Below are positions 2,372 to 13,128 of a stretch of DNA of 13,128 nucleotides, in pieces. Numbering within the stretch: position 1 is the first letter of the stretch; the number at the start of each line of letters is the position of its first letter. Both the position numbers and the translations under genes were made by a program. Location: contig JABIQT010000394.1 of assembly GCA_018667995.1 (NCBI GenBank), positions 1 to 13,128 on the forward strand, in the 5' to 3' direction. Below the pieces are notes generated by a model. The model worked only from the letters and a program-made list of their open reading frames with translations, was not told the DNA's origin and made no database searches. Source of the DNA: Candidatus Latescibacterota bacterium. GTDB lineage: Bacteria > JAAXHH01 > JABIQT01.

Positions 2372-4060
2372 CTATTCCCATTCACAGGCCTCCCCGCGTC
2401 TTAGCACGTAGACTTCTTGTCGGCCGTAGTGCGGCATATCTACAGGCGGCGCGACTTCATCGAGACAATGTGGTGTCCTCACCCTTGCCTCTTGCACGGC
2501 ATCCCAGATCTCTCGACCGAAGGGCACCTTCTCCAGGTGCGGATATTCCTGTACGATGAGCAAGTTGATCCCGGGCCGTAAGACCGCCCGCATTCTCGCC
2601 TGCCACTCCGATGTGTAGCCGATCTCGCCGCCGGTGATCTGCAGATCAGTACTGCGCGTGTGTTCGTAGATCAGATTCCTATAGGCGTCGATGGCGTGCA
2701 ACATACGTCCTTGGTGCACGACGAAGTTCCCCAGGATGAAGACATCTTCGCGCTTCTGGCTTGGTCGCTCGTCCACGAACTCGGCAATCTTGTGTGCGTG
2801 CTCGAAGATCAATCCCTTGGCTACCGCCTCGTCACCCTGCAGTGGAGGTGGAGATGCTGGCGTGAGTGCCAGCACGGCGATGGACAGACCCGCAGCCAAA
2901 TAGCGGGATACCCAAATTCCTGCGTGATCGTTCACCAAACGCGTTAAATAGAGGGCTGCCAGAACTGAAAAAGGCAGGAAGTAGACGATGAGAACTCGAG
3001 AGTGCAGTGGATGGGAGGCCATCAGCAGATATGTGAACACACCGCAGGCTAGCGTGTAAATGCCAAGCCGGGATGCTCCTGCCCCGTCGTCAGCAATTCG
3101 TTTTCGTTCGTAGAACACGGCAACCGGGACGGCCAGGGTGAGCCAGAAGTTCGTGTGCTGCAGCAGAACCCACGGGTAATACATCAGACCCCAAAGGAGC
3201 GAAGTGGGCAACTCCGAAACCAGATTCCCTACGCGTTCGCCAGCACTGTCGCCTCCGGTCGCCATGAGATAGTAGAACAACGTGACCTCCAGGTATTCCC
3301 AGAAGAAGACGAAGAGTAGACCGACGGTAGCCACCAACAGGGCCCACTGCCCGCGTGTCGCAGGGATTAGAACCGCAAACGATGGACGGTAGACTATGAG
3401 TCCAATGACCAGTAGAGGAACGAGGAGAAAAAGCACCGAACTCTTGAGGAACATCGCTATCGTCGCGACTGCCAAGGCACCGCGGTAGCGGCCACCAACG
3501 ACGAAGACGACGGCGATGGACGCCGCGGTCAGAGCCAGCAGATCAAGTCGAGTGTCGCGTGCTCCGCCGTGCTCGGCCGGGAACACCCCGATTGCCAGCA
3601 TGATCGATCCGGCTAACAGGAGTTCCCAGAAGCGGTTCTTCCGACTGACTGTGGTAAAGAGCACGCTCAGTAAAGCCAGCAGGCACAGTACCCAACCGAG
3701 GCCGAAGGCGGTCCTGCCGAAACCCACCAGAAGGGTCGGCAATGACATCACGAAATAGGGAATCATCACGTCCCCGACGAATTCGTGAGACAGGAGATCG
3801 CCCAACCCGTTCGTCCTGAGGAATGAGGCGAGGTTACACACTCCCGAGACGTGCCGGCATCCGTCGAACAGGGGGACTAGCGCGGACTGGGAATTGTTGT
3901 GCCACTGAACGATCAGTGCTCCGAATGCGCCAAAGGTAGCCACGCATGCGGCGGCGCCCACAACATCCTGCCGGCTCTCCACCCACTGCTGCAAACCAGC
4001 CCTCACTTGCTGGCCCAGCAGCTTCATCTTGGCATACAGACCCCGAGAATTGTCGTTCAT
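2372..4060 (-). CDS. Large multi-pass membrane protein with soluble C-terminal domain; possible GT-C-type glycosyltransferase
   Basis: A 562-residue protein if started at ATG 4058-4060. The N-terminal 30 residues are basic and amphipathic. About 10-12 hydrophobic helices then run from residue 32 to about 410, followed by a soluble domain of about 145 residues beginning near GDEAVAKGLIFEHAHKI. The first extracytoplasmic loop (about 51-95) carries NNSQSALVPLFDGCRH and two Cys residues; a middle loop reads GGARDTRLDLLA. A large membrane domain followed by a soluble tail, in a polysaccharide locus, fits the GT-C fold (lipid-linked sugar donors, periplasmic transfer), but I see no clean catalytic DD or DxD in the first loop. 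The frame stays open upstream to 4240, but that extension is Arg/Pro/Ser-rich and unlike a membrane protein, so the internal ATG is preferred; a weak AAGG lies 13 nt upstream. An alternative ATG is at 4025-4027. It could instead be a transporter-like or flippase protein. Confidence 0.65.
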   Translation of the reverse strand: MNDNSRGLYAKMKLLGQQVRAGLQQWVESRQDVVGAAACVATFGAFGALIVQWHNNSQSALVPLFDGCRHVSGVCNLASFLRTNGLGDLLSHEFVGDVMIPYFVMSLPTLLVGFGRTAFGLGWVLCLLALLSVLFTTVSRKNRFWELLLAGSIMLAIGVFPAEHGGARDTRLDLLALTAASIAVVFVVGGRYRGALAVATIAMFLKSSVLFLLVPLLVIGLIVYRPSFAVLIPATRGQWALLVATVGLLFVFFWEYLEVTLFYYLMATGGDSAGERVGNLVSELPTSLLWGLMYYPWVLLQHTNFWLTLAVPVAVFYERKRIADDGAGASRLGIYTLACGVFTYLLMASHPLHSRVLIVYFLPFSVLAALYLTRLVNDHAGIWVSRYLAAGLSIAVLALTPASPPPLQGDEAVAKGLIFEHAHKIAEFVDERPSQKREDVFILGNFVVHQGRMLHAIDAYRNLIYEHTRSTDLQITGGEIGYTSEWQARMRAVLRPGINLLIVQEYPHLEKVPFGREIWDAVQEARVRTPHCLDEVAPPVDMPHYGRQEVYVLRRGEACEWE

Positions 4061-4225
4061 TCGTAACCGTTCGCCTTCGAGAGGACGTTGGCTCCGACGA
4101 GTGAGAGACGGCTCACGCTCTTCCCTTTGGGCCGCAGTGCCTGGATATGAGTCTGCCCAAGATTTGCCGTGGACAAGCCGCCTGCTTGACAGGGATTTGG
4201 GAGTCGGCCGAGCTCGGTGCAGGGA

Positions 4226-4252
4226 GCCCGTGTGGCCCACAGGGCCACGGGC
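4226..4252. other. GC-rich imperfect hairpin upstream of the minus-strand membrane protein gene
   Basis: GCCCG (4226-4230) and TGGCCC (4233-4238) pair with GGGCCA (4242-4247) and CGGGC (4248-4252). This makes an 11-bp GC-rich stem with a 2-nt bulge (TG) and a 3-nt loop (ACA). It lies about 165 bp upstream of the ATG at 4060, so it could be in that gene's leader. There is no T-tract, so it is not an ordinary intrinsic terminator. Function unknown. Confidence 0.4.
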
Positions 4253-4387: not shown

Positions 4388-4432
4388 GACTGTCGTACGT
4401 CTGACTGTCGTACGTCTGACTGTCGTACGTCT
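4388..4432. repeat. Three perfect tandem copies of a 15-bp unit
   Basis: The unit GACTGTCGTACGTCT occurs at 4388-4402, 4403-4417 and 4418-4432 with no mismatch and no spacer. Each copy contains the self-complementary core CGTACG. The array sits in the divergent intergenic region, about 330 bp from the minus-strand start and about 250 bp from the plus-strand start. Possible roles are an array of protein-binding sites or a simple slippage-prone minisatellite; sequence alone does not decide. Confidence 0.9.
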
Positions 4433-4500
4433 GTCAGCTCAGTAAACGCAATGTCGCGGCCCTGCTGTCGGAGGCCTTGCGTAAATGGTAGCAGTCGACT

Positions 4501-4678: not shown

Positions 4679-5647
4679 ATGCAGCTTGCGGGAAAGCGTT
4701 TCTTGGTAATAGGTGGTGCAGGGCTCATCGGGTCTCACGTCGTAGAGCGGGCCCTGAGTGAGGACGTCGCAGAGGTCATCATATTCGACAACTTCGCTCG
4801 TGGTACATCCGAGAATCTTGCGACGGCGCTCAAGGATTCTCGTTGTAGCGTGTACGACGTGGGCGGTGACATCTTACACACCGACGTTCTTCAGAACGCA
4901 GTCAGAGGCGTCGATGGAGTGTTTCATCTTGCGGCGCTCTGGCTTCTGCAGTGTCAGGAGTTTCCGAGGGCAGCCTTCGACGTGAACATCAGGGGTACGT
5001 TCAACGTAGTTGAGGCTTGCATTCAGGCTGGAGTCAACCGCCTCGTCTATTCGTCCTCGTCCTCTGTCTATGGCGACGCACTCTCTGAACCGATGACGGA
5101 GGATCATCCTTACAACAACACCACCTTCTACGGGGCCACAAAGATCGCCGGCGAGCATATGTGTAGAGCCTTCGCGAATCATCAAGGTCTCGCTTACGTC
5201 GCCCTGAGATACATGAATGTCTATGGCCCCCGGCAGGACTACCGCGGCGCGTACACCGGAGTCATAATGAATATGCTCGACCGACTTCATCAAGGATTGC
5301 CGCCTGTTGTTCATGGAGACGGGTCCCAGTCCTATGATTTTGTCCACGTGACGGACTGTGCTGCGTCCAATCTCGCGGCCATGCAGGCCGACACGACGGA
5401 TGAGTTCTACAACGTCGGGACCGGCATCTGCACATCAATCCTTGAAATCGCCGAGATGCTGATCGAAATAACCGGGGCTTCAGTCGACGTGGAATTTGCG
5501 CCTGAGACACAGAGCTTCGTTCAACGCCGTGTGGGCAGTCCGACCAAAGCGTGTCACGATCTTCGATTCTCTGCAAAGGTAGAACTTCGCGAAGGACTGA
5601 CGGAACTGGTGGCCTGGCACCGAGAAGATGTCAGACGAGAGCAGTGA
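4679..5647 (+). CDS. NAD-dependent sugar epimerase/dehydratase (extended SDR, UDP-glucose 4-epimerase-like)
   Basis: A 322-residue cytoplasmic enzyme expected to modify a nucleotide-activated sugar (4-epimerisation or a related oxidation-reduction at C4) for the glycan made here. The N-terminal Rossmann motif GGAGLIGS (12-19) is the GxxGxxG NAD site; FDNF with Asp37 ends the second strand. VYSSSSSVYG (123-132) supplies the catalytic Ser/Thr region and FYGATK (150-155) the YxxxK pair (Tyr151, Lys155). RYMNVYGPRQ (177-186) and HGDGSQSYDFVHVTD (212-226) are typical of nucleotide-sugar epimerases and dehydratases. Length is normal for a short epimerase. ATG 4679 is chosen because GAGGA at 4667-4671 sits 7 nt upstream and the Rossmann strand follows at once; the open frame back to 4550 is discarded as non-protein-like. 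The exact substrate cannot be read from sequence. It converges on the flippase gene. Confidence 0.9.
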   Translation: MQLAGKRFLVIGGAGLIGSHVVERALSEDVAEVIIFDNFARGTSENLATALKDSRCSVYDVGGDILHTDVLQNAVRGVDGVFHLAALWLLQCQEFPRAAFDVNIRGTFNVVEACIQAGVNRLVYSSSSSVYGDALSEPMTEDHPYNNTTFYGATKIAGEHMCRAFANHQGLAYVALRYMNVYGPRQDYRGAYTGVIMNMLDRLHQGLPPVVHGDGSQSYDFVHVTDCAASNLAAMQADTTDEFYNVGTGICTSILEIAEMLIEITGASVDVEFAPETQSFVQRRVGSPTKACHDLRFSAKVELREGLTELVAWHREDVRREQ

Positions 5648-5691: not shown

Positions 5692-6747
5692 TCATTCAGC
5701 CATCTCTCCCGTGGTGGATTGTCGACTTGCCTCAGACTGAGTAGACCGCCACCAGAGATCGCGAAAGGGACTGCCTTCAAGAATGACCATCAGCAGGCCT
5801 GCTCCGAACACCAGCAGTGTGTTCAACGCCCATACGAGAACACCAAAGCCGGCTGCAGCAACGACCCCTTCTCCCATCACGTCCCGCAGTGCGACGATCG
5901 CACCTGCACTGAAGGATCCGAGGAAGGCTGGCGTGGGCAGCACGGTGATGAAAACACTGATCATCACGCGCACGACTATCAGGGACACGAGGGTCTTCTC
6001 CTGTAGATCAAAGGCCCAATAGAGCGGTGCGAAAGACACGATGGTGATGCCCCACAGCAGCAGCGAATCCATCACGATGAGGAGGACGTCACGAGGTTTC
6101 GCAAACGCGCCAAAACCCTCGGCAACATGGCCAACGGCATCATTCGTGATGTCGACCCAGCGTGTTGGCAAGAACCGCCCTAGGCTGTTGACGATTCTTA
6201 GTGACGCAGCCCGCTGTGTCGTGGATAGAACGACCAGGAGAACGAGGATGACCGCCGCTGCAAGTCCGAACTCGCTGAATCTCAGCAGGACGTCGCGTAG
6301 AGGCAGTTCGGGATAGACATCCGAAACCAGATCTGCCGGTAGCGCAAATCGAAAAACCCAGAAACACAGAAGAAGTATTACGGTCAGGTCGCACAAGCGC
6401 TCTGCCACCACTGTCGCCATGCCCCCGGTGAAGGGCACATTGTGCTTTCGACTGAGAAGGAATCCTTTGAGAAGCTCACCCGTGCGTCCGGGGAGGATAT
6501 TACCCATCAGCCCAATCGCAAGGGGTGAGATCAGACCTGACAACGGCACCTGCTTCATCGGATACAGGAGGATCTTCCAGCGATGCAACCGGAAGTAGTA
6601 TGCTGAACACATCACGAGGAAAGTACCGGCAATGTGCAGCAGGCTGACCTCACTCAGACTGTCAGTAACATCACCGACAGATACGCTTCGCAGCGTGTAG
6701 TACCCCGCCCCAATACCGACAAGGACACCAAGGATCCAGCGGCCCAT
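5692..6747 (-). CDS. Flippase-like integral membrane protein (lysylphosphatidylglycerol synthase TM region family, UPF0104/YbhN-like)
   Basis: A 351-residue membrane protein with about eight hydrophobic helices, matching the stand-alone membrane-domain family PF03706 related to the MprF flippase domain. Diagnostic stretches are YYFRLHRWKILLYP (50-63), NILPGRTGELLKGFLLSRK (83-101) and VVAERLCDL (113-121), all near where this family has its conserved Arg and Glu residues. No cytoplasmic aminoacyl-transferase domain is attached. Such proteins are often found in glycan clusters and are thought to move lipid-linked substrates across the membrane; that role here is inference. ATG 6745-6747 is preferred over the GTG at 6784-6786 because a strong Shine-Dalgarno (AAGGGAGGG on the minus strand, ending 6 nt upstream) precedes it. 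It is divergent from the deacetylase operon and shares its 127-bp promoter region. Confidence 0.85.
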   Translation of the reverse strand: MGRWILGVLVGIGAGYYTLRSVSVGDVTDSLSEVSLLHIAGTFLVMCSAYYFRLHRWKILLYPMKQVPLSGLISPLAIGLMGNILPGRTGELLKGFLLSRKHNVPFTGGMATVVAERLCDLTVILLLCFWVFRFALPADLVSDVYPELPLRDVLLRFSEFGLAAAVILVLLVVLSTTQRAASLRIVNSLGRFLPTRWVDITNDAVGHVAEGFGAFAKPRDVLLIVMDSLLLWGITIVSFAPLYWAFDLQEKTLVSLIVVRVMISVFITVLPTPAFLGSFSAGAIVALRDVMGEGVVAAAGFGVLVWALNTLLVFGAGLLMVILEGSPFRDLWWRSTQSEASRQSTTGEMAE

Positions 6748-6791
6748 TGGCAGCCCTCCCTTTGCACCACGGACGATGGGGTTCACGTTGC

Positions 6792-6874: not shown

Positions 6875-7774
6875 ATGAAAGCAAACATCTCCATTGACTT
6901 CGAAGGAGAAGAGCAATACTTCCGCACACTCGGCGTATCACCCGAGGGCAGGCTGAGTGACAACTTCTACAGCAGATGCGCGGAACGTTTCTTGGAGATT
7001 TTTGAGCGCGTGGGCGTCAAGGCAACGTTCTTCATTGTCGGCCAGGACGTGGACGAAAACTTGGATACCCTCCGACAGATCGTCAAGGCGGGGCATCAGA
7101 TTGGCAATCACAGCCATGACCATCAGTTCGCCATGTCTCGTTATGACGTGGAAGAACAGAACGACGATATCCAGCGGGCCCACGAAAAAATCAAGAGTGC
7201 CCTGGACGTGGAGGCGCGGTGTTATCGAGCGCCCTGCTACGATGTCTCGTATCCCAACATCGAGTTTCTTCACTCTCTGGGATATCAATGCGATTCGTCC
7301 TTCTATCCAAGCAACCTGGCTTATTTTCAGCGGCTGTTCCTCAAGGCATATACGAACCGACCCGTATCGATGGGACCAACCGACGTACACCGATACCCGG
7401 GGCGCCCCTTCCTTCTGGATGTCTCAGCGTCCCCTCCTGTTGTCAGCGATCGAGCCAACGGGACGACACTGCTGGAGGTTCCGATCCCGTACTTTTCGCC
7501 CCTGCAACTGCCCCTGTATTCGACACCGCAGTTCGCCTTAGGGAAAGGCTTCGTCGTTAGGGGCGTACGGTCGCTGCTTCGGCGTCAGATTCCATTCACA
7601 TACGAGCTCCACTCCCTTGATGTGGCCTGTGAGACTACAGATGGGATCGATCCGGCACTCCGCCGAATCCCGCAAATGAGGGTTGGATTACAGAAAAAGA
7701 CGTCTGATTTCGAGGAGATCTTCACGATCATGAAGAACGAGGCCGACATCGTGCCGATTACTGACCTGGCATGA
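6875..7774 (+). CDS. NodB-type polysaccharide deacetylase family protein (CE4; ArnD/XrtA-associated-like)
   Basis: A 299-residue metal-dependent deacylase of the NodB-homology family, which removes acetyl or formyl groups from sugar amines. Motif 1 is SIDFEGE (6-12) with Asp8 as likely catalytic base; this D-x-E form differs from the usual TFDDG and resembles the ArnD and XrtA-associated branches. ATFFIVGQDV (50-59) follows. Motif 2 is NHSHDH (78-83), giving the His79-x3-His83 metal pair. Motif 3 is RAPCY (118-122). The C-terminal ELHSLDV (244-250) supplies the late His246. There is no signal peptide, so it is probably cytoplasmic or membrane-peripheral, acting on a lipid-linked or nucleotide sugar rather than an exported polymer. 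ATG 6875 is chosen over the in-frame TTG at 6851 since homology begins immediately and AGAGAGA (6859-6865) lies 9 nt upstream. It is the first gene of the rightward operon and overlaps the formyltransferase by 4 bp. Confidence 0.88.
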   Translation: MKANISIDFEGEEQYFRTLGVSPEGRLSDNFYSRCAERFLEIFERVGVKATFFIVGQDVDENLDTLRQIVKAGHQIGNHSHDHQFAMSRYDVEEQNDDIQRAHEKIKSALDVEARCYRAPCYDVSYPNIEFLHSLGYQCDSSFYPSNLAYFQRLFLKAYTNRPVSMGPTDVHRYPGRPFLLDVSASPPVVSDRANGTTLLEVPIPYFSPLQLPLYSTPQFALGKGFVVRGVRSLLRRQIPFTYELHSLDVACETTDGIDPALRRIPQMRVGLQKKTSDFEEIFTIMKNEADIVPITDLA

Positions 7775-8559
7775 ACGTCGTCTTGTTCACAGTCGATGAG
7801 CCGCTGTTAAACAATCCCTGTGTCTTCCGCCTCTGTGAGGAACTTCAGGGAACAATTCGCGGCATCGTCGATTGCAAGGGCTTCCATAGCCGTCGACGAT
7901 CCATAGCAACTGCGCTCATTCTCGGTCCCTCGGGACTTGCCAGGCTTGCCTGGAGACGCGTCTTCAGACCTCAACAGTCGCTGAGCGATCACTGTAGACA
8001 AAACGACCTACCCTATCTCCAGACCGATGACATTAACAGTCAAGCTGTCCTCGACTTTTGCGACACCCTGGAAGCCGATGCCATCGTCAGCCTGGTCCTG
8101 GCACAGAAAATCAAGAAAGAGCTCCTTGCACGCTTCCCGGCGATCAACGTCCATTTCGCCGATCTGCCAAACTATCGCGGCATCTTCCCTGTGTTCTGGG
8201 CTTTGCATGAAGGTGAGAAACGGGTAGGGATCAGCGCCCACGAGATCATCCAGCAGTTCGACAAGGGTAAGGTGATCGCCCGCGACTACGTGGAAGTAAA
8301 GCGCGGGACAGGCAGCTTCCTACCCACCATGGATTCCTGCTTCGAGAGAACGCCGGCGTTGATTGCCAAGGCTCTCGGCTTCCTCGATCCTGCCACGCGA
8401 GACGACTACGCCCTGCCCGAGGGCCGTGAGGAAGATGGCAGTTACCACTCCATCCCGGGGCTCGGTGATATCCTCCGCTACCACCTCAACTCAGATTCAG
8501 AGATCGACTGCGCGGGATCTGCGGCGGAACTCGGCGGCGACTCGGGGTCAGGCAACTGA
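7771..8559 (+). CDS. Formyltransferase family protein (likely sugar-amine N-formyltransferase)
   Basis: A 262-residue protein of the formyl_transf_N family (PF00551), which moves a formyl group from 10-formyl-tetrahydrofolate to an amine. The core is INVHFADLPNYRGIFPVFWA (125-144), the N-x-H...LPxYRG signature, then the GISAHEI stretch (153-159) and FDKGKVIA (163-170). The catalytic triad would be Asn126, His128 and Asp164, all present. It lacks the C-terminal domain of methionyl-tRNA formyltransferase (normally about 310 residues), and purine formyltransferase would not belong here, so an amino-sugar substrate like that of the ArnA N-domain, WbtJ or VioF is most likely. The residues after about 210 are acidic and poorly conserved-looking. 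ATGA overlap (7771-7774) with the deacetylase suggests coupled translation; the next gene starts 19 bp after the stop. Substrate identity is inference. Confidence 0.87.
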   Translation: MNVVLFTVDEPLLNNPCVFRLCEELQGTIRGIVDCKGFHSRRRSIATALILGPSGLARLAWRRVFRPQQSLSDHCRQNDLPYLQTDDINSQAVLDFCDTLEADAIVSLVLAQKIKKELLARFPAINVHFADLPNYRGIFPVFWALHEGEKRVGISAHEIIQQFDKGKVIARDYVEVKRGTGSFLPTMDSCFERTPALIAKALGFLDPATRDDYALPEGREEDGSYHSIPGLGDILRYHLNSDSEIDCAGSAAELGGDSGSGN

Positions 8560-8578
8560 TCCTGCGGCTGGAGATCCG

Positions 8579-9709
8579 ATGATGGTGTCAGACGCAGAAG
8601 TCGTTGTGGTGGGCGGAGGTTTTTTCGGGATGTACCTCGCTGCCCACTTTGGAGGGCAGGGACGCGATGTATTGCTGATCGAGCGCGAACGCGACTTCAT
8701 GCAGCGAGCCTCCTATGTAAATCAGGCACGAGTGCACAACGGCTATCACTATCCACGCAGTATTCTGACTGCGTTGCGATCGCGGATTTCATTTCCCCGC
8801 TTCTGCGCCGAATTCGCAGATTGTATCGACGGGTCCTTTGATAAGTACTACATGATTGGTAAGCTCCTCGGCAACGTAACGGCGAAACAGTTTACCGAGT
8901 TCTGCCAGCGGATTGGAGCTCCCTGCGAACCAGCCCCGAAAGAGGTGTTGGACTGGGTCAACCCGCGCCTGATTGAGGCAGCCTGGCGTGTCGAGGAAGT
9001 AGCATTCGATGCGATCAAACTGAAGCAGACCATGTGTGGGATGTTGGACGACAACTCCGTATCATGCCTACTTGGGACGACAGCTGAGAGCATTCGTCGC
9101 GATGGCAATCAGATTGAGATCCTGTGCTCTGCTACGGAAGATTCCTGCCGACAGCAGCGGATCCGTACTCGCCAGGTATTCAATTGTACCTATGCAATGA
9201 CCAATTCCCTCTTGACCAACAGTGGCTTGGAACTGATTCCGTTGGTACATGAGCATACGGAACTGTGTCTCGTTGAGGTCCCCGAACAGTTCAGGAATTG
9301 CGGCATCACGGTGATGTGTGGTCCCTTCTTTTCCTGCATGCCCTTTCCGCCGAAATCAATGCACTCTTTCAGTCACGTGCGCTATACTCCACACTACCAA
9401 TGGGAGGATGACGGGATACGGGGCTACGCAGATGTCGATCGGCACGGGCTTTCGGCTCGCAACTCGGCATGGCGTCATATGCAACTCGACGCTCAGCGAT
9501 ATATCCCGATGCTGGCAGACTGCCACTACAAGGAATCACTCTTTGAGATAAAGACGACTCTGCCAAGCAGTGCGGTGGATGACTCCCGACCGTTCCTTTG
9601 GAAACCAAACCATGGACTACCCGGATTTCATTGCCTGCTTGGGGGCAAGATTGACAACATCTACGATGCCGTGGATGTGATCAAGCAATACGGATTGGAC
9701 ACAGGATGA
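8579..9709 (+). CDS. FAD-dependent oxidoreductase (DAO-like fold)
   Basis: A 376-residue flavoenzyme of the DAO / NAD(P)-binding Rossmann type. EVVVVGGGFFGMYLAAHF at 7-24 is the FAD-binding GxGxxG region, and Glu35 in LLIERE closes the second strand to hold the ribose. A striking conserved-looking stretch follows, YVNQARVHNGYHYPRS (46-61), where the isoalloxazine or substrate would sit. The C-terminus has the late FAD motif region LLGGKIDNIYDA (356-367). The middle (about 90-330) is not recognisable beyond a mixed substrate domain. It likely oxidises an amine or hydroxyl on a sugar or lipid-linked sugar; the substrate is unknown. ATG 8579 (or 8582) follows GGAG at 8570-8573; the open frame reaching back to 8363 overlaps the formyltransferase and is rejected. 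It overlaps the next gene by ATGA. Confidence 0.82.
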   Translation: MMVSDAEVVVVGGGFFGMYLAAHFGGQGRDVLLIERERDFMQRASYVNQARVHNGYHYPRSILTALRSRISFPRFCAEFADCIDGSFDKYYMIGKLLGNVTAKQFTEFCQRIGAPCEPAPKEVLDWVNPRLIEAAWRVEEVAFDAIKLKQTMCGMLDDNSVSCLLGTTAESIRRDGNQIEILCSATEDSCRQQRIRTRQVFNCTYAMTNSLLTNSGLELIPLVHEHTELCLVEVPEQFRNCGITVMCGPFFSCMPFPPKSMHSFSHVRYTPHYQWEDDGIRGYADVDRHGLSARNSAWRHMQLDAQRYIPMLADCHYKESLFEIKTTLPSSAVDDSRPFLWKPNHGLPGFHCLLGGKIDNIYDAVDVIKQYGLDTG

Positions 9710-10749
9710 ATGCAGCTAGTCAGTTTGGTGCGCCGGAAGAGAGGCTGGAGTGCTTTGTTTCTGTCGCCTGCACGTTGAGAGATGGAACCCTTGATCTCGA
9801 CCAGTACGTCGAGGAGTTGAGTAGGCATCTCGAAGAGCGCTTTGCAGACCATGAGATCCTCCTCGTACACCTGGGAGCCGACGCGCATCTCATACTGAGT
9901 GTAACGGAACTGCTCAGCTGTGTACCAAATGTGCGTTTCATTGAGTTGGCACCCGGGATCGAAGACGACATCGTCCACAGCGTCTGTGTCGACAATGCCA
10001 TAGGTGATTTCGTCGTTGTCCTCGACCCCCGCCGTGACCCAGCCGGTATCGTTTCGGATCTGGTCGACAAGTGTCGAAGCGGTTCGGATGTTGTGGTCGG
10101 CGTGGCCAGGCATCCGGCAACGATCGGCTACCGCATGATGGCCCCCCTCATGCGCCGCGTGCTGAGAAGGACCGGATACAATCTCCCGAGAGATATCACC
10201 GGTCTCTGCTGCCTGAGTCGTCAGGCGGTGTCTTCAGTATTGCGCATCGGGCGATCCCATCATGAGTTCATGAACCGTATCGCTCGTTCTGGATACCCGG
10301 TCTTTGCCTTGGAGTACGAGCCGAAAGTCAGGTTGCGGAAGACTCTGATAGCCGGCTTGCACAGCGCGCTCCGGGCGCTGGTTTTCAACTCCAGAAGTCC
10401 CCTCCGCTGGATCGTCGCTGTCGGCCTGTTTGGGAGCTGCCTGTCCGCGGCTGCGTCCGGCTATAGCATTCTAGTGCATTTCGTGCGAGACCACGTCCAG
10501 GAGGGTTGGACGACGACCATGGTACTGATTTCTGGTCTGTTCATGCTGCAGTTTGCGATCCTTGCCCTGCTGGGCGAGTACGTGGGTCATCTCTTGGAGG
10601 AGTTGAGTTGTCGGGACGCCTACTCGGTTGTCTTCGAGAAGCACAGTTCTGTCATGGTCGACGAATTGCGTCGAAACGTGAAGACGGAAGCACGGTCTGC
10701 AGCTTCGCAGGAGACCACTCGCCCTGACTCTGAGTCTCCAACGTCGTGA
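9706..10749 (+). CDS. GtrB/ArnC-like membrane GT2 homologue with degenerate catalytic motifs
   Basis: A 347-residue protein built like polyprenyl-phosphate glycosyltransferases (GtrB, ArnC, DPM1 type): an N-terminal GT2-like domain of about 220 residues, then two membrane helices (about 235-260 and 270-293). The family ending SPLRW...LQFAILALLGEYVGHLLEE (231-299) is well kept. The catalytic part is not: where the family has [IV]DDGSxD it reads VHLGADA (54-60), and where it has LDADLQDP it reads LDPRRDP (106-112), so the second Asp of DxD and the nucleotide-binding Asp pair are gone. The N-terminal VxPxYNE is also replaced (VSVACTLRDG, 18-27). The frame is intact and overlaps both neighbours by 4 bp, so it is not a decaying gene. 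It may be an inactive membrane scaffold or an enzyme with altered chemistry. The C-terminal 40 residues are polar and probably disordered. Confidence 0.8.
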   Translation: MNAASQFGAPEERLECFVSVACTLRDGTLDLDQYVEELSRHLEERFADHEILLVHLGADAHLILSVTELLSCVPNVRFIELAPGIEDDIVHSVCVDNAIGDFVVVLDPRRDPAGIVSDLVDKCRSGSDVVVGVARHPATIGYRMMAPLMRRVLRRTGYNLPRDITGLCCLSRQAVSSVLRIGRSHHEFMNRIARSGYPVFALEYEPKVRLRKTLIAGLHSALRALVFNSRSPLRWIVAVGLFGSCLSAAASGYSILVHFVRDHVQEGWTTTMVLISGLFMLQFAILALLGEYVGHLLEELSCRDAYSVVFEKHSSVMVDELRRNVKTEARSAASQETTRPDSESPTS

Positions 10750-11579
10750 GCCAGGCAGATCCTGACCTCTCTCGGGTGGTGCCGTCCTACAATGCGACGG
10801 TCCTGCGAGCGCGTCGTTCCAGGTATTGCGTGTGTGTTTACGTGATCAACGAAGGGGATCGTCTTCGTCGGCAGCTGGCACGAATGCGCTCATTCAGCGC
10901 CGAAATAGATATCGTCATCGCTGATGGTGGCAGCACGGATGGCTCAACGGATCTTAGTTTTCTCAAGGAGCAGGGCGTCGCGGCCTTGCTCACGAAGACC
11001 AGCGCGGGGAAGCTCAGTTCGCAGATGAGAATGGCCTTTGCCTGGGCCCTGTCGCAAGGGTACGATGGCGTCGTCTGCGTTGATGGCAATGACAAGGATG
11101 GCATCGAGGAAACACCGACCTTCATTCGATGCCTGGAGGAGGGCTACGATCACGTACAGGGTTCGCGATTCATGATTGGCGGCGAACATCGCAATACGCC
11201 CACGTTGCGTCTCTTGGCGGTTCGTGCGTTGCACGTACCCCTCATCAGTTTGGCCGCAGGGATACGCTACACTGACACAACCAATGGCTACAGGGCATAC
11301 AGTGCCAAGCTGCTCACTGATTCTCGCATGGCTCTCTTCCGTGATATCTTCTCAGACTACGAATTGCACTACTACCTCGCCGTGCGGGCGCCTCGATTGG
11401 GCCTGCAGTGCAAAGAGATACCCGTGAGCCGCTGTTATCCTCCCACGGGGAAGACGCCAACAAAGATTCGCTCCTTCGCAGCCCATCTGAGAGTCCTCGC
11501 TCAGCTCGTTGGCGTGTGCATCGGCGCCTATAACCCTGATTCAAGGTTTCTGAGCTATCTGCTGAGAAGAAGCGGTTGA
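10746..11579 (+). CDS. Family 2 glycosyltransferase, soluble
   Basis: A 277-residue GT-A fold enzyme with the family 2 motifs that the preceding protein lacks: VINEGD (33-38), IADGGSTDGST (58-68) for the nucleotide sugar, VDGNDKDG (112-119) as the DxD-type metal site, QGSRF (138-142), and the acceptor-side TDTTNGYRAYS (176-186). These resemble dolichol-/polyprenyl-phosphate sugar transferases. No C-terminal membrane helices are present; only a mildly hydrophobic stretch occurs around 249-262, so membrane attachment would need a partner. The late RCYPPTGKTPTKI (229-241) is basic and could meet lipid phosphate. The GTG start at 10746 overlaps the previous stop as GTGA, implying translational coupling. 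It is followed by an 81-bp gap before the GT-C-like gene. The sugar donor is unknown. Confidence 0.88.
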   Translation: MSQADPDLSRVVPSYNATVLRARRSRYCVCVYVINEGDRLRRQLARMRSFSAEIDIVIADGGSTDGSTDLSFLKEQGVAALLTKTSAGKLSSQMRMAFAWALSQGYDGVVCVDGNDKDGIEETPTFIRCLEEGYDHVQGSRFMIGGEHRNTPTLRLLAVRALHVPLISLAAGIRYTDTTNGYRAYSAKLLTDSRMALFRDIFSDYELHYYLAVRAPRLGLQCKEIPVSRCYPPTGKTPTKIRSFAAHLRVLAQLVGVCIGAYNPDSRFLSYLLRRSG

Positions 11580-11660
11580 GGATTTTGGCGGAGCGAGGAG
11601 ACGGGCAAGACACCAGGCCTTCAACACTCAGCAACTTCGACACGACGGAGTGAACCCCTC

Positions 11661-13128
11661 GTGAGCAACCTGTCGCAACCTTTGTCGTATGCCCTGTCCT
11701 TCGTCTGGGGCTTGTCTGTTCTTGCCGCTTTCATCGGCTGGGGGAAGACGTTCGAGACCATCCTGCGATCCAGTGCTCCGATCAATTGGGGGAGAGCCGG
11801 CGCCTACGGCATCGGGGTTGCTGTCCTGTACGGCGGGTTACTGAATCTGACACACCTTATCTCGCAGAAGTCCGTCTTCATCTTTGTCGCCGCTGGTTGC
11901 CTGCTGTGCATTCGCGCTTGGATCCTGCAAGTGCAGGCACGCTCAGCTCCCGGGTATCCTTCAGGGCAAGTCGATCGACGCGTGAGTATTTCGCATTTCC
12001 TTCTGCTACTTACCACGATCCTGGCGCTCTTCTACTACGGTGGCAACGTCTGGGGATACGCAACGGGATTCAACGCGGACGATGACTACCAGGGGTATTT
12101 TGTCTTCGCAGAGAGGATGTTACAGGAGGGCCATCTTCCACACGATCCATTCAACCTTCGCAGACTGCGATCGAGCCTGGGCGGCCATGATTTCCTGAGT
12201 GTCATCGGTACGGCGGTTGGGTCCGAATCGAACATGAATCTGGTAGAGCCTGGTTTGGCCTCTCTCGTGGCCATAGGCACGCTGCTTGGGATTGGCAGGG
12301 GTAACCTTGCAGCATCACCCCTCCGGTTTGTACCTGCTCTGTTGCTCCTCGTGATTCCCCTTCCCGCAAGAAATGTCACCAGTCTGATGAGTGGGATCGC
12401 GCTTCTACTTGCCCTGTTTGGGATCCTGCGGAACTCGACACCTGAGGGCAGGTTAGAAATTGGGCAGAGAGCGGCTGCCGGGTTGATCGTCGCCACGCTA
12501 TGTGCGTTCAGAAACACCTATCTCGCCCAGGTTTCAGTTATTGTTCTCGTGTGCTATCTGCCAGTGATGGCATCGGCTGAACGCAGACGGAAGGTCGTGG
12601 AGGAGATCCTCTCGATCGCGGGTTTCTCGCTGTTGTTCCTCTCGCCCTGGCTCCTGGCATCGGCCATCGAGAATCACACCCTCATGTATCCCTATACTGG
12701 AACTGGTTCTGTGGCTGTGTTGCCTGATCTGTCCATTGCTTACTTGATGGGCGAGATTGACGGTGCCATGGTGAAAAGTGCCTTCTTCACCACTGTCACG
12801 GATCCTCTTCTCATCTGCACTCTGGTACTTCAACTCTTCTTCCTGGTGTTGCGCACGAACCAAGGTGCAGAGTTCAAAGAGATCGTCCCATATTCCATCG
12901 GCCTGATCCTCGCCGCATTGGCCACAGAGATCTTCACAATCCGATACGATCCCAACGGTAGGTATTCCTTCCCTCTGTTCTGCACGGCTTTCCTTGTCGG
13001 TGTCCAGGGACTTATGGGAGCAAGTACAGCTTTGCTCGGCACGACATGGAGGAGGAAGTGGCTGTGCGTAGGATGCGTCCTGCTCATATCAGCAGGATAT
13101 TTGTGGGGCAAGGAGGGCGAGGTGAGAA
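11661..13128 (+). CDS. Large GT-C-like multi-pass membrane protein (3' end outside window)
   Basis: An open frame of 489 codons running off the right edge. It has a hydrophobic start (about 8-27), then about ten or more membrane helices. The first big loop after the YYGGN helix contains the acidic cluster FNADDDYQGYFVFAERMLQ (137-155) with Asp140-142, followed by HDPFNLRRLRSSLGGHDF (161-178). An acidic pair in the first extracytoplasmic loop is the hallmark of GT-C glycosyltransferases that use polyprenyl-linked donors (ArnT, PMT, STT3 types). A later loop has RYDPNGRYSFPLF (about 430-442). GTG 11661 is used because GGAG (11647-11650) lies 10 nt upstream and no other start codon occurs in frame after the preceding stop. 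It is probably the last-step transferase of this operon; full length and C-terminal domain are not visible. Confidence 0.75.
   Translation, partial: MSNLSQPLSYALSFVWGLSVLAAFIGWGKTFETILRSSAPINWGRAGAYGIGVAVLYGGLLNLTHLISQKSVFIFVAAGCLLCIRAWILQVQARSAPGYPSGQVDRRVSISHFLLLLTTILALFYYGGNVWGYATGFNADDDYQGYFVFAERMLQEGHLPHDPFNLRRLRSSLGGHDFLSVIGTAVGSESNMNLVEPGLASLVAIGTLLGIGRGNLAASPLRFVPALLLLVIPLPARNVTSLMSGIALLLALFGILRNSTPEGRLEIGQRAAAGLIVATLCAFRNTYLAQVSVIVLVCYLPVMASAERRRKVVEEILSIAGFSLLFLSPWLLASAIENHTLMYPYTGTGSVAVLPDLSIAYLMGEIDGAMVKSAFFTTVTDPLLICTLVLQLFFLVLRTNQGAEFKEIVPYSIGLILAALATEIFTIRYDPNGRYSFPLFCTAFLVGVQGLMGASTALLGTTWRRKWLCVGCVLLISAGYLWGKEGEVR

Follow-up and report, generated by a model that had tools for sequence, protein, structure and literature searches.

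A deacylase–formyltransferase pair adjoins an FAD–GT2–GT2 cassette in a Candidatus Latescibacterota contig: a candidate lipid-carrier glycosylation locus

The Arn pathway (ArnA, B, C, D, T, E, and F), which attaches L-Ara4N to lipid A, is one of the closest described counterparts of the locus considered here; in this pathway, formylation is followed by deformylation (PMC12650200). Another point of comparison is provided by the GtrA-GtrB-GtrC serotype-conversion cassettes. In the Francisella NaxD/FlmK galactosamine route and in the mycobacterial PpgS route, a deacylase acts on polyprenyl-phosphate N-acetylhexosamine before transfer; we know of no formyltransferase in either route, and NaxD belongs to another deacetylase family than NodB. 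N-formyl sugars are normally explained by the joint work of an aminotransferase and a formyltransferase.

The window analyzed here is an entire contig of 13,128 bases from an assembly of a Candidatus Latescibacterota bacterium (6.06 Mb, 1165 contigs, 85% complete), and its end falls within the gene of the last membrane protein (Table 1). An earlier note had listed in this DNA a NodB-type deacylase, a formyltransferase, an FAD oxidoreductase, a two-TM GtrB/ArnC-type protein, and a second GT2, all of which are indeed present according to Pfam and the sequence of the GtrB structure. The three 4-bp overlaps also lie precisely where it had placed them (7771, 9706, and 10746) and read ATGA, ATGA, and GTGA, respectively, while the remaining two junctions of the block are gaps of 19 and 81 bases. 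The SDR and the flippase-like protein that it had noticed upstream are both there, but the latter is encoded on the minus strand and hence outside the operon. As had been remarked, no aminotransferase (ArnB-type) is found among the window genes by the gene list and Pfam, and the contig stops at 13128. Pfam gave no match for 9706–10749 or for 11661->13128, and in the window as a whole Rfam gave zero matches and no meaningful repeats were found.

Table 1. Genes of the block and its upstream neighbors in the window
Feature	Coordinates	Strand	Basis
SDR, NAD-dependent nucleotide-sugar epimerase/dehydratase (GalE/LegB-like)	4679..5647	+	PF01370 E 1e-53
LPG_synthase_TM flippase-like membrane protein	5692..6786	-	PF03706 E 1e-28
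NodB-type (CE4) deacylase, module B	6875..7774	+	PF01522 (Polysacc_deac_1) E 5e-22
N-formyltransferase (10-formyl-THF type), module B	7771..8559	+	PF00551 (Formyl_trans_N) E 3e-14
FAD-dependent oxidoreductase, DAO superfamily, module A	8579..9709	+	PF01266 (DAO) E 3e-16
GT2a, GtrB/ArnC-type two-TM protein, module A	9706..10749	+	GtrB sll0501 E 1.5e-13
GT2b, soluble dolichyl/polyprenyl-phosphate-sugar-synthase-like GT2, module A	10746..11579	+	PF00535 (Glycos_transf_2)
Membrane protein, ~11 TM segments, GT-C-like topology, cut by contig end	11661->13128	+	hydropathy, NADDDY loop motif

When the conservation of gene order was checked, two sub-blocks proved to be conserved, whereas the six-gene order was found in no other genome. 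The block is two separately conserved modules that adjoin each other, not a conserved six-gene Arn-like unit. The core of module A is represented in the window by adjacent genes for the FAD oxidoreductase, the degenerate GtrB-fold protein GT2a, and the DGNxKD-type GT2b; module B is a coupled pair of NodB and a formyltransferase distinct from ArnA and Fmt. The modules were seen together in one genome only, that of the window. In the open-access literature, no description was found of the NodB–formyltransferase pair or of the FAD-GtrA-TIM cassette.

The NodB of module B retains the motifs D8/E10, H79-S-x-x-H83, RAP, DSSFYP, and LH246 and bears neither a signal peptide nor a TM segment. Its NCBIfam scores are 20 bits against the ArnD model (cut-off 382) and 63 bits against the model of the XrtA/PEP-CTERM polysaccharide deacetylase (TIGR03006, cut-off 276), and it possesses an R-x-P motif, in place of which ArnD has AAGW. 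The XrtA model is its second-best match, both proteins are cytosolic NodB enzymes without a signal peptide, and the SFDVEEWF/HPWE motifs of the XrtA deacetylase are seen in the NodB part of the fusion proteins described below; however, the window protein falls far under the curated cut-off, and no exosortase genes are in view. A NodB tree gave no resolved position for the window protein, either within or outside the exported-polysaccharide clade that the earlier note had named as a check, and was left out of its placement. The formyltransferase keeps the triad Asn126/His128/Asp164, which is invariant across its family, and groups, on a long branch, with NodB-coupled formyltransferases (support 91/90). 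ArnA lies outside this clade, as do Fmt and PurN, the tRNA and purine enzymes against which a check had been advised.

Coupling of the two genes recurs well beyond the window. NodB and formyltransferase genes that overlap by 4 bp, with an LPG_synthase_TM gene directly behind them, are found on a plasmid of the archaeon Haloarcula (L042) and in G044, a bacterium of another lineage (L049); no aminotransferase was seen within 8 kb of the Haloarcula pair, and a DegT-like aminotransferase gene is located about 8 kb from the pair in G044. When 384 genomes were searched with a three-sequence profile and full-length relatives were split off from the Fmt/ArnA background, several of these relatives had NodB adjacent or fused. 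In the small phylum of G118, the formyltransferase is present in 26 of 42 genomes, and 19 of its 28 loci encode a single GT4–formyltransferase–NodB chain, while NodB occupies a neighboring reading frame in seven and two are cut by contig ends, one of the latter still being a formyltransferase–NodB fusion; NodB is thus fused or adjacent in 27 of the 28, the exception being cut at a contig end. Because overlapping pairs and natural fusions arise repeatedly, the two proteins appear to belong together functionally, and most likely one and the same amino sugar is handled by each in turn. The LPG_synthase_TM protein of the window is a possible carrier-lipid flippase tied to module B.

The fusion protein itself is about 940 aa long (L086–L112, L118–L121) and occurs in most genomes of part of the G118 phylum, where its gene is apparently near-core. 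In the loci that were opened further, it sits amid mnmE/mnmG/rsmG/parA/parB-like housekeeping genes, recognized by eye from their translations, with no aminotransferase visible beside it.

The FAD enzyme of module A is rare. Of the 384 genomes sampled, only that of the window has it, and the 15 from the same order in this sample yielded none; it was also found in 5 of 398 Pseudomonadota genomes, including Salinivibrio, the center of that search, these scans of genome contigs being based on near-exact peptide patterns that underestimate the spread; in addition, it was met in 12 plasmid records and three named genome loci. Such a patchy spread suggests horizontal transfer. The enzyme is 50–55% identical to the Salinivibrio and RUG065 proteins; its AlphaFold model is of low quality (pLDDT 45). 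All 12 uncut proteobacterial loci (Salinivibrio, Psychrobacter plasmid pA22P4, Sulfurospirillum, RUG065, Azospirillum, Sagittula, Cereibacter, Ruegeria, Sphingomonas, G780, G800, and G583) combine the FAD enzyme, GT2a, and GT2b with a divergent SDR and a PF01261 TIM barrel, and in most of them an SMR protein or GtrA and a large membrane protein are encoded close by; NodB and the formyltransferase are in none of the 12. In Sulfurospirillum, the FAD gene (L034:3454-4598) is split across two reading frames and its GT2 partners are intact.

The SDR located upstream in the window is unrelated to the divergent SDR of module A loci, and its tie to the cassette is putative. No relative of the module A SDR was found in the source's assembled genome (85% complete), where the TIM barrel gave weak generic matches only; both genes may sit downstream of 13128 or in the portion of the genome that the assembly lacks. 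Contig C122 ends in a TIM-barrel fragment, which was considered as the missing gene and rejected, as it adjoins an FtsX-like permease. The idea that the NodB–formyltransferase pair replaces the SDR–TIM pair was also dropped: in Sulfurospirillum, the SDR and the TIM barrel lie downstream of the GT-C genes, which is where the window contig is cut.

Like the GtrA-GtrB-GtrC cassettes, alphaproteobacterial module A loci possess GtrA, a GtrB-fold protein, and a large membrane protein, but their GtrB-fold protein is degenerate and is paired with a soluble GT2, the FAD enzyme, the SDR, and the TIM barrel. By analogy with the Arn and Gtr systems, the kinds of flippase present, together with the GtrB-fold protein, point to a lipid-carrier glycosylation cassette. 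As to the FAD enzyme, a distant homologue (34%) is encoded on a phage contig, flanked by a DegT-like aminotransferase and a Gfo/Idh-like dehydrogenase, and these neighbors suggest a role in sugar oxidation. The region concerned (L047:7803-15634), on a contig with capsid-type genes, is a virus-borne amino-sugar locus with two DegT-like aminotransferases, the FAD-enzyme relative, the Gfo/Idh-like dehydrogenase, several GT2s, and GNAT acetyltransferases.

The last membrane protein carries the NADDDY motif at residues 138–143, within a long loop predicted from hydropathy. Pfam and NCBIfam yielded no match for it, and neither tblastn nor a pattern scan that included plasmids and viral contigs revealed relatives. 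Its alignment with the GT-C-like proteins of relatives, at 15–18%, is not meaningful. The protein is GT-C-like by topology only; of the earlier assignment, the many-TM topology is confirmed and the GT-C family is not.

The alignment of GT2a with the solved GtrB sll0501 (profile E 3e-28) and with ArnC (E 2e-15) spans the entire protein; its AlphaFold model is of low quality (pLDDT 55.5). The motifs NEG, DGG-x-x-DG (DGGSTDGS), DGNxKD, and G-x-R-x-Y/F (GxRAY) of GT2b are kept in 13 of 13 homologues, and its profile matches the DPM synthase 5mlz. In GT2a, by contrast, the DXD (the DAD metal site) and NE motifs are unconserved in all 13 homologues, and little is left of the second Asp motif. As the catalytic motifs are lost in GT2a and retained in GT2b, GT2b is likely the catalytic enzyme that loads the carrier and GT2a a probable membrane pseudo-glycosyltransferase serving as its anchor or partner. 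Alternatively, GT2a might be active with unusual catalytic residues and GT2b might be a second transferase that adds another sugar, both of them loading or extending the carrier. The full-length alignment with GtrB and ArnC, the preservation of both TM helices, and the part of the second motif that Azospirillum and G780 retain speak for an active GT2a, but the loss of DXD and NE throughout is what would be expected of a pseudo-enzyme, and we consider this alternative, which concerns the GT2 roles alone and is compatible with either order of the formyl steps, to be quite unlikely.

Tentatively, and with slightly less than an even chance of being right, the whole locus may be read as a lipid-carrier glycosylation cassette built of two joined modules, with an N-acetyl to N-formyl exchange, GT2b as the loader, and GT2a as a pseudo-enzyme. 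NodB would remove acetyl from an N-acetylamino sugar in the cytosol, and the formyltransferase would put formyl on the freed amine, so that the delivered residue would be N-formyl. GT2b would load the sugar onto polyprenyl phosphate, anchored or activated by the two-TM pseudo-glycosyltransferase GT2a, much as the soluble eukaryotic DPM1 is anchored by small membrane subunits. The FAD enzyme would oxidize the sugar or the lipid-linked sugar, the LPG_synthase_TM flippase-like protein would perhaps be part of module B, and the GT-C-like transferase would pass the polyprenyl-phosphate-linked sugar to a surface glycan outside the membrane. In this scheme, we infer the substrates, the order of deacetylation and then formylation, what the FAD enzyme does, the GT-C step, and the use of one sugar by both modules, the latter having its sole basis in the close packing of the genes in one operon of one genome. 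Speaking against the scheme are this single occurrence of the two modules together and the failure to find, in the assembled genome, the SDR and a convincing TIM barrel that accompany module A elsewhere.

The order of the formyl steps is where this exchange has to be weighed against an Arn-like order of protection, transfer, and deprotection, the kind of module seen here by the earlier note. In this rival, the formyltransferase would formylate an amino-sugar nucleotide, a GT2 would load it onto polyprenyl phosphate, NodB would deformylate it, and the GT-C protein would transfer the free amino sugar, with the aminotransferase encoded outside the contig. The protein families do fit the published Arn steps (PMC12650200): like Arn, the locus combines a formyltransferase with a NodB-fold deacylase and a two-TM protein of the GtrB/ArnC type, probably also with a GT-C protein, and module A relatives carry SMR (ArnE/F-type) flippases. 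The GT4–formyltransferase–NodB fusion would then accomplish formylation, transfer, and deformylation in one chain, NodB could equally remove a formyl group, and the DegT-like gene some 8 kb from the pair in G044 keeps the Arn order in play. However, the window lacks ArnB and a UDP-GlcA dehydrogenase and has an extra FAD enzyme and a soluble GT2. A one-to-one match with ArnA(N), ArnD, ArnC, and ArnT is not supported: the formyltransferase lies apart from ArnA, NodB is not ArnD-like, being far from the ArnD model and having the RxP motif canonical for deacetylases and absent from ArnD, the ArnC-like protein is without DXD and other catalytic motifs, and the GT-C-like protein, cut by the contig end, matches no family. 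Neither the window pair nor the Haloarcula pair (within 8 kb) nor the opened fusion genes have an aminotransferase in view, which is why the exchange is favored; with NodB alone in sight as a supplier of the free amine at these sites, deacetylation first is the simpler reading. We regard the Arn order as unlikely. In its logic, the locus is similar to the aminoarabinose pathway of lipid A, of which it is not a member; the formyl-sugar and lipid-carrier part of the earlier reading survives in the NodB–formyltransferase coupling and the carrier-type cassette, while the equivalence with Arn finds no support. It is improbable that there is no common intermediate at all, with NodB deacetylating one residue, the formyltransferase formylating another, and the FAD-GT2-GT2 cassette decorating a surface polysaccharide: modules A and B are indeed apart in all other genomes seen, but the repeated fusion and overlap of NodB and the formyltransferase make the independence of these two unlikely; module A may still act independently of B.

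In the acetyl-to-formyl reading, the pair could, more broadly, represent a widespread and undescribed swap on lipid-linked amino sugars, often fused with a glycosyltransferase and here feeding a loading complex of a dead GtrB-fold protein and a soluble GT2, a generalization that we find rather doubtful. If the pair works as supposed, it would be a second route to N-formyl groups, from ordinary N-acetyl sugars, or else a second independent use of transient formylation, and the trifunctional GT4–formyltransferase–NodB protein, with all activities in a single chain, lends itself to a test of their order. An obligate pairing of a pseudo-glycosyltransferase with a soluble lipid-carrier glycosyltransferase would, if true, be a bacterial parallel to DPM1/DPM2/DPM3.

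Two features of the upstream part of the window deserve mention. A 622-aa many-TM protein without a family match is encoded at 2372–4240 on the minus strand, beside an O-antigen-ligase gene (1089–2339), and is possibly a second GT-C-like transferase. Before the SDR gene, the intergenic stretch 4388–4433 bears a perfect 15-bp tandem repeat, GACTGTCGTACGTCT, in 3.1 copies.
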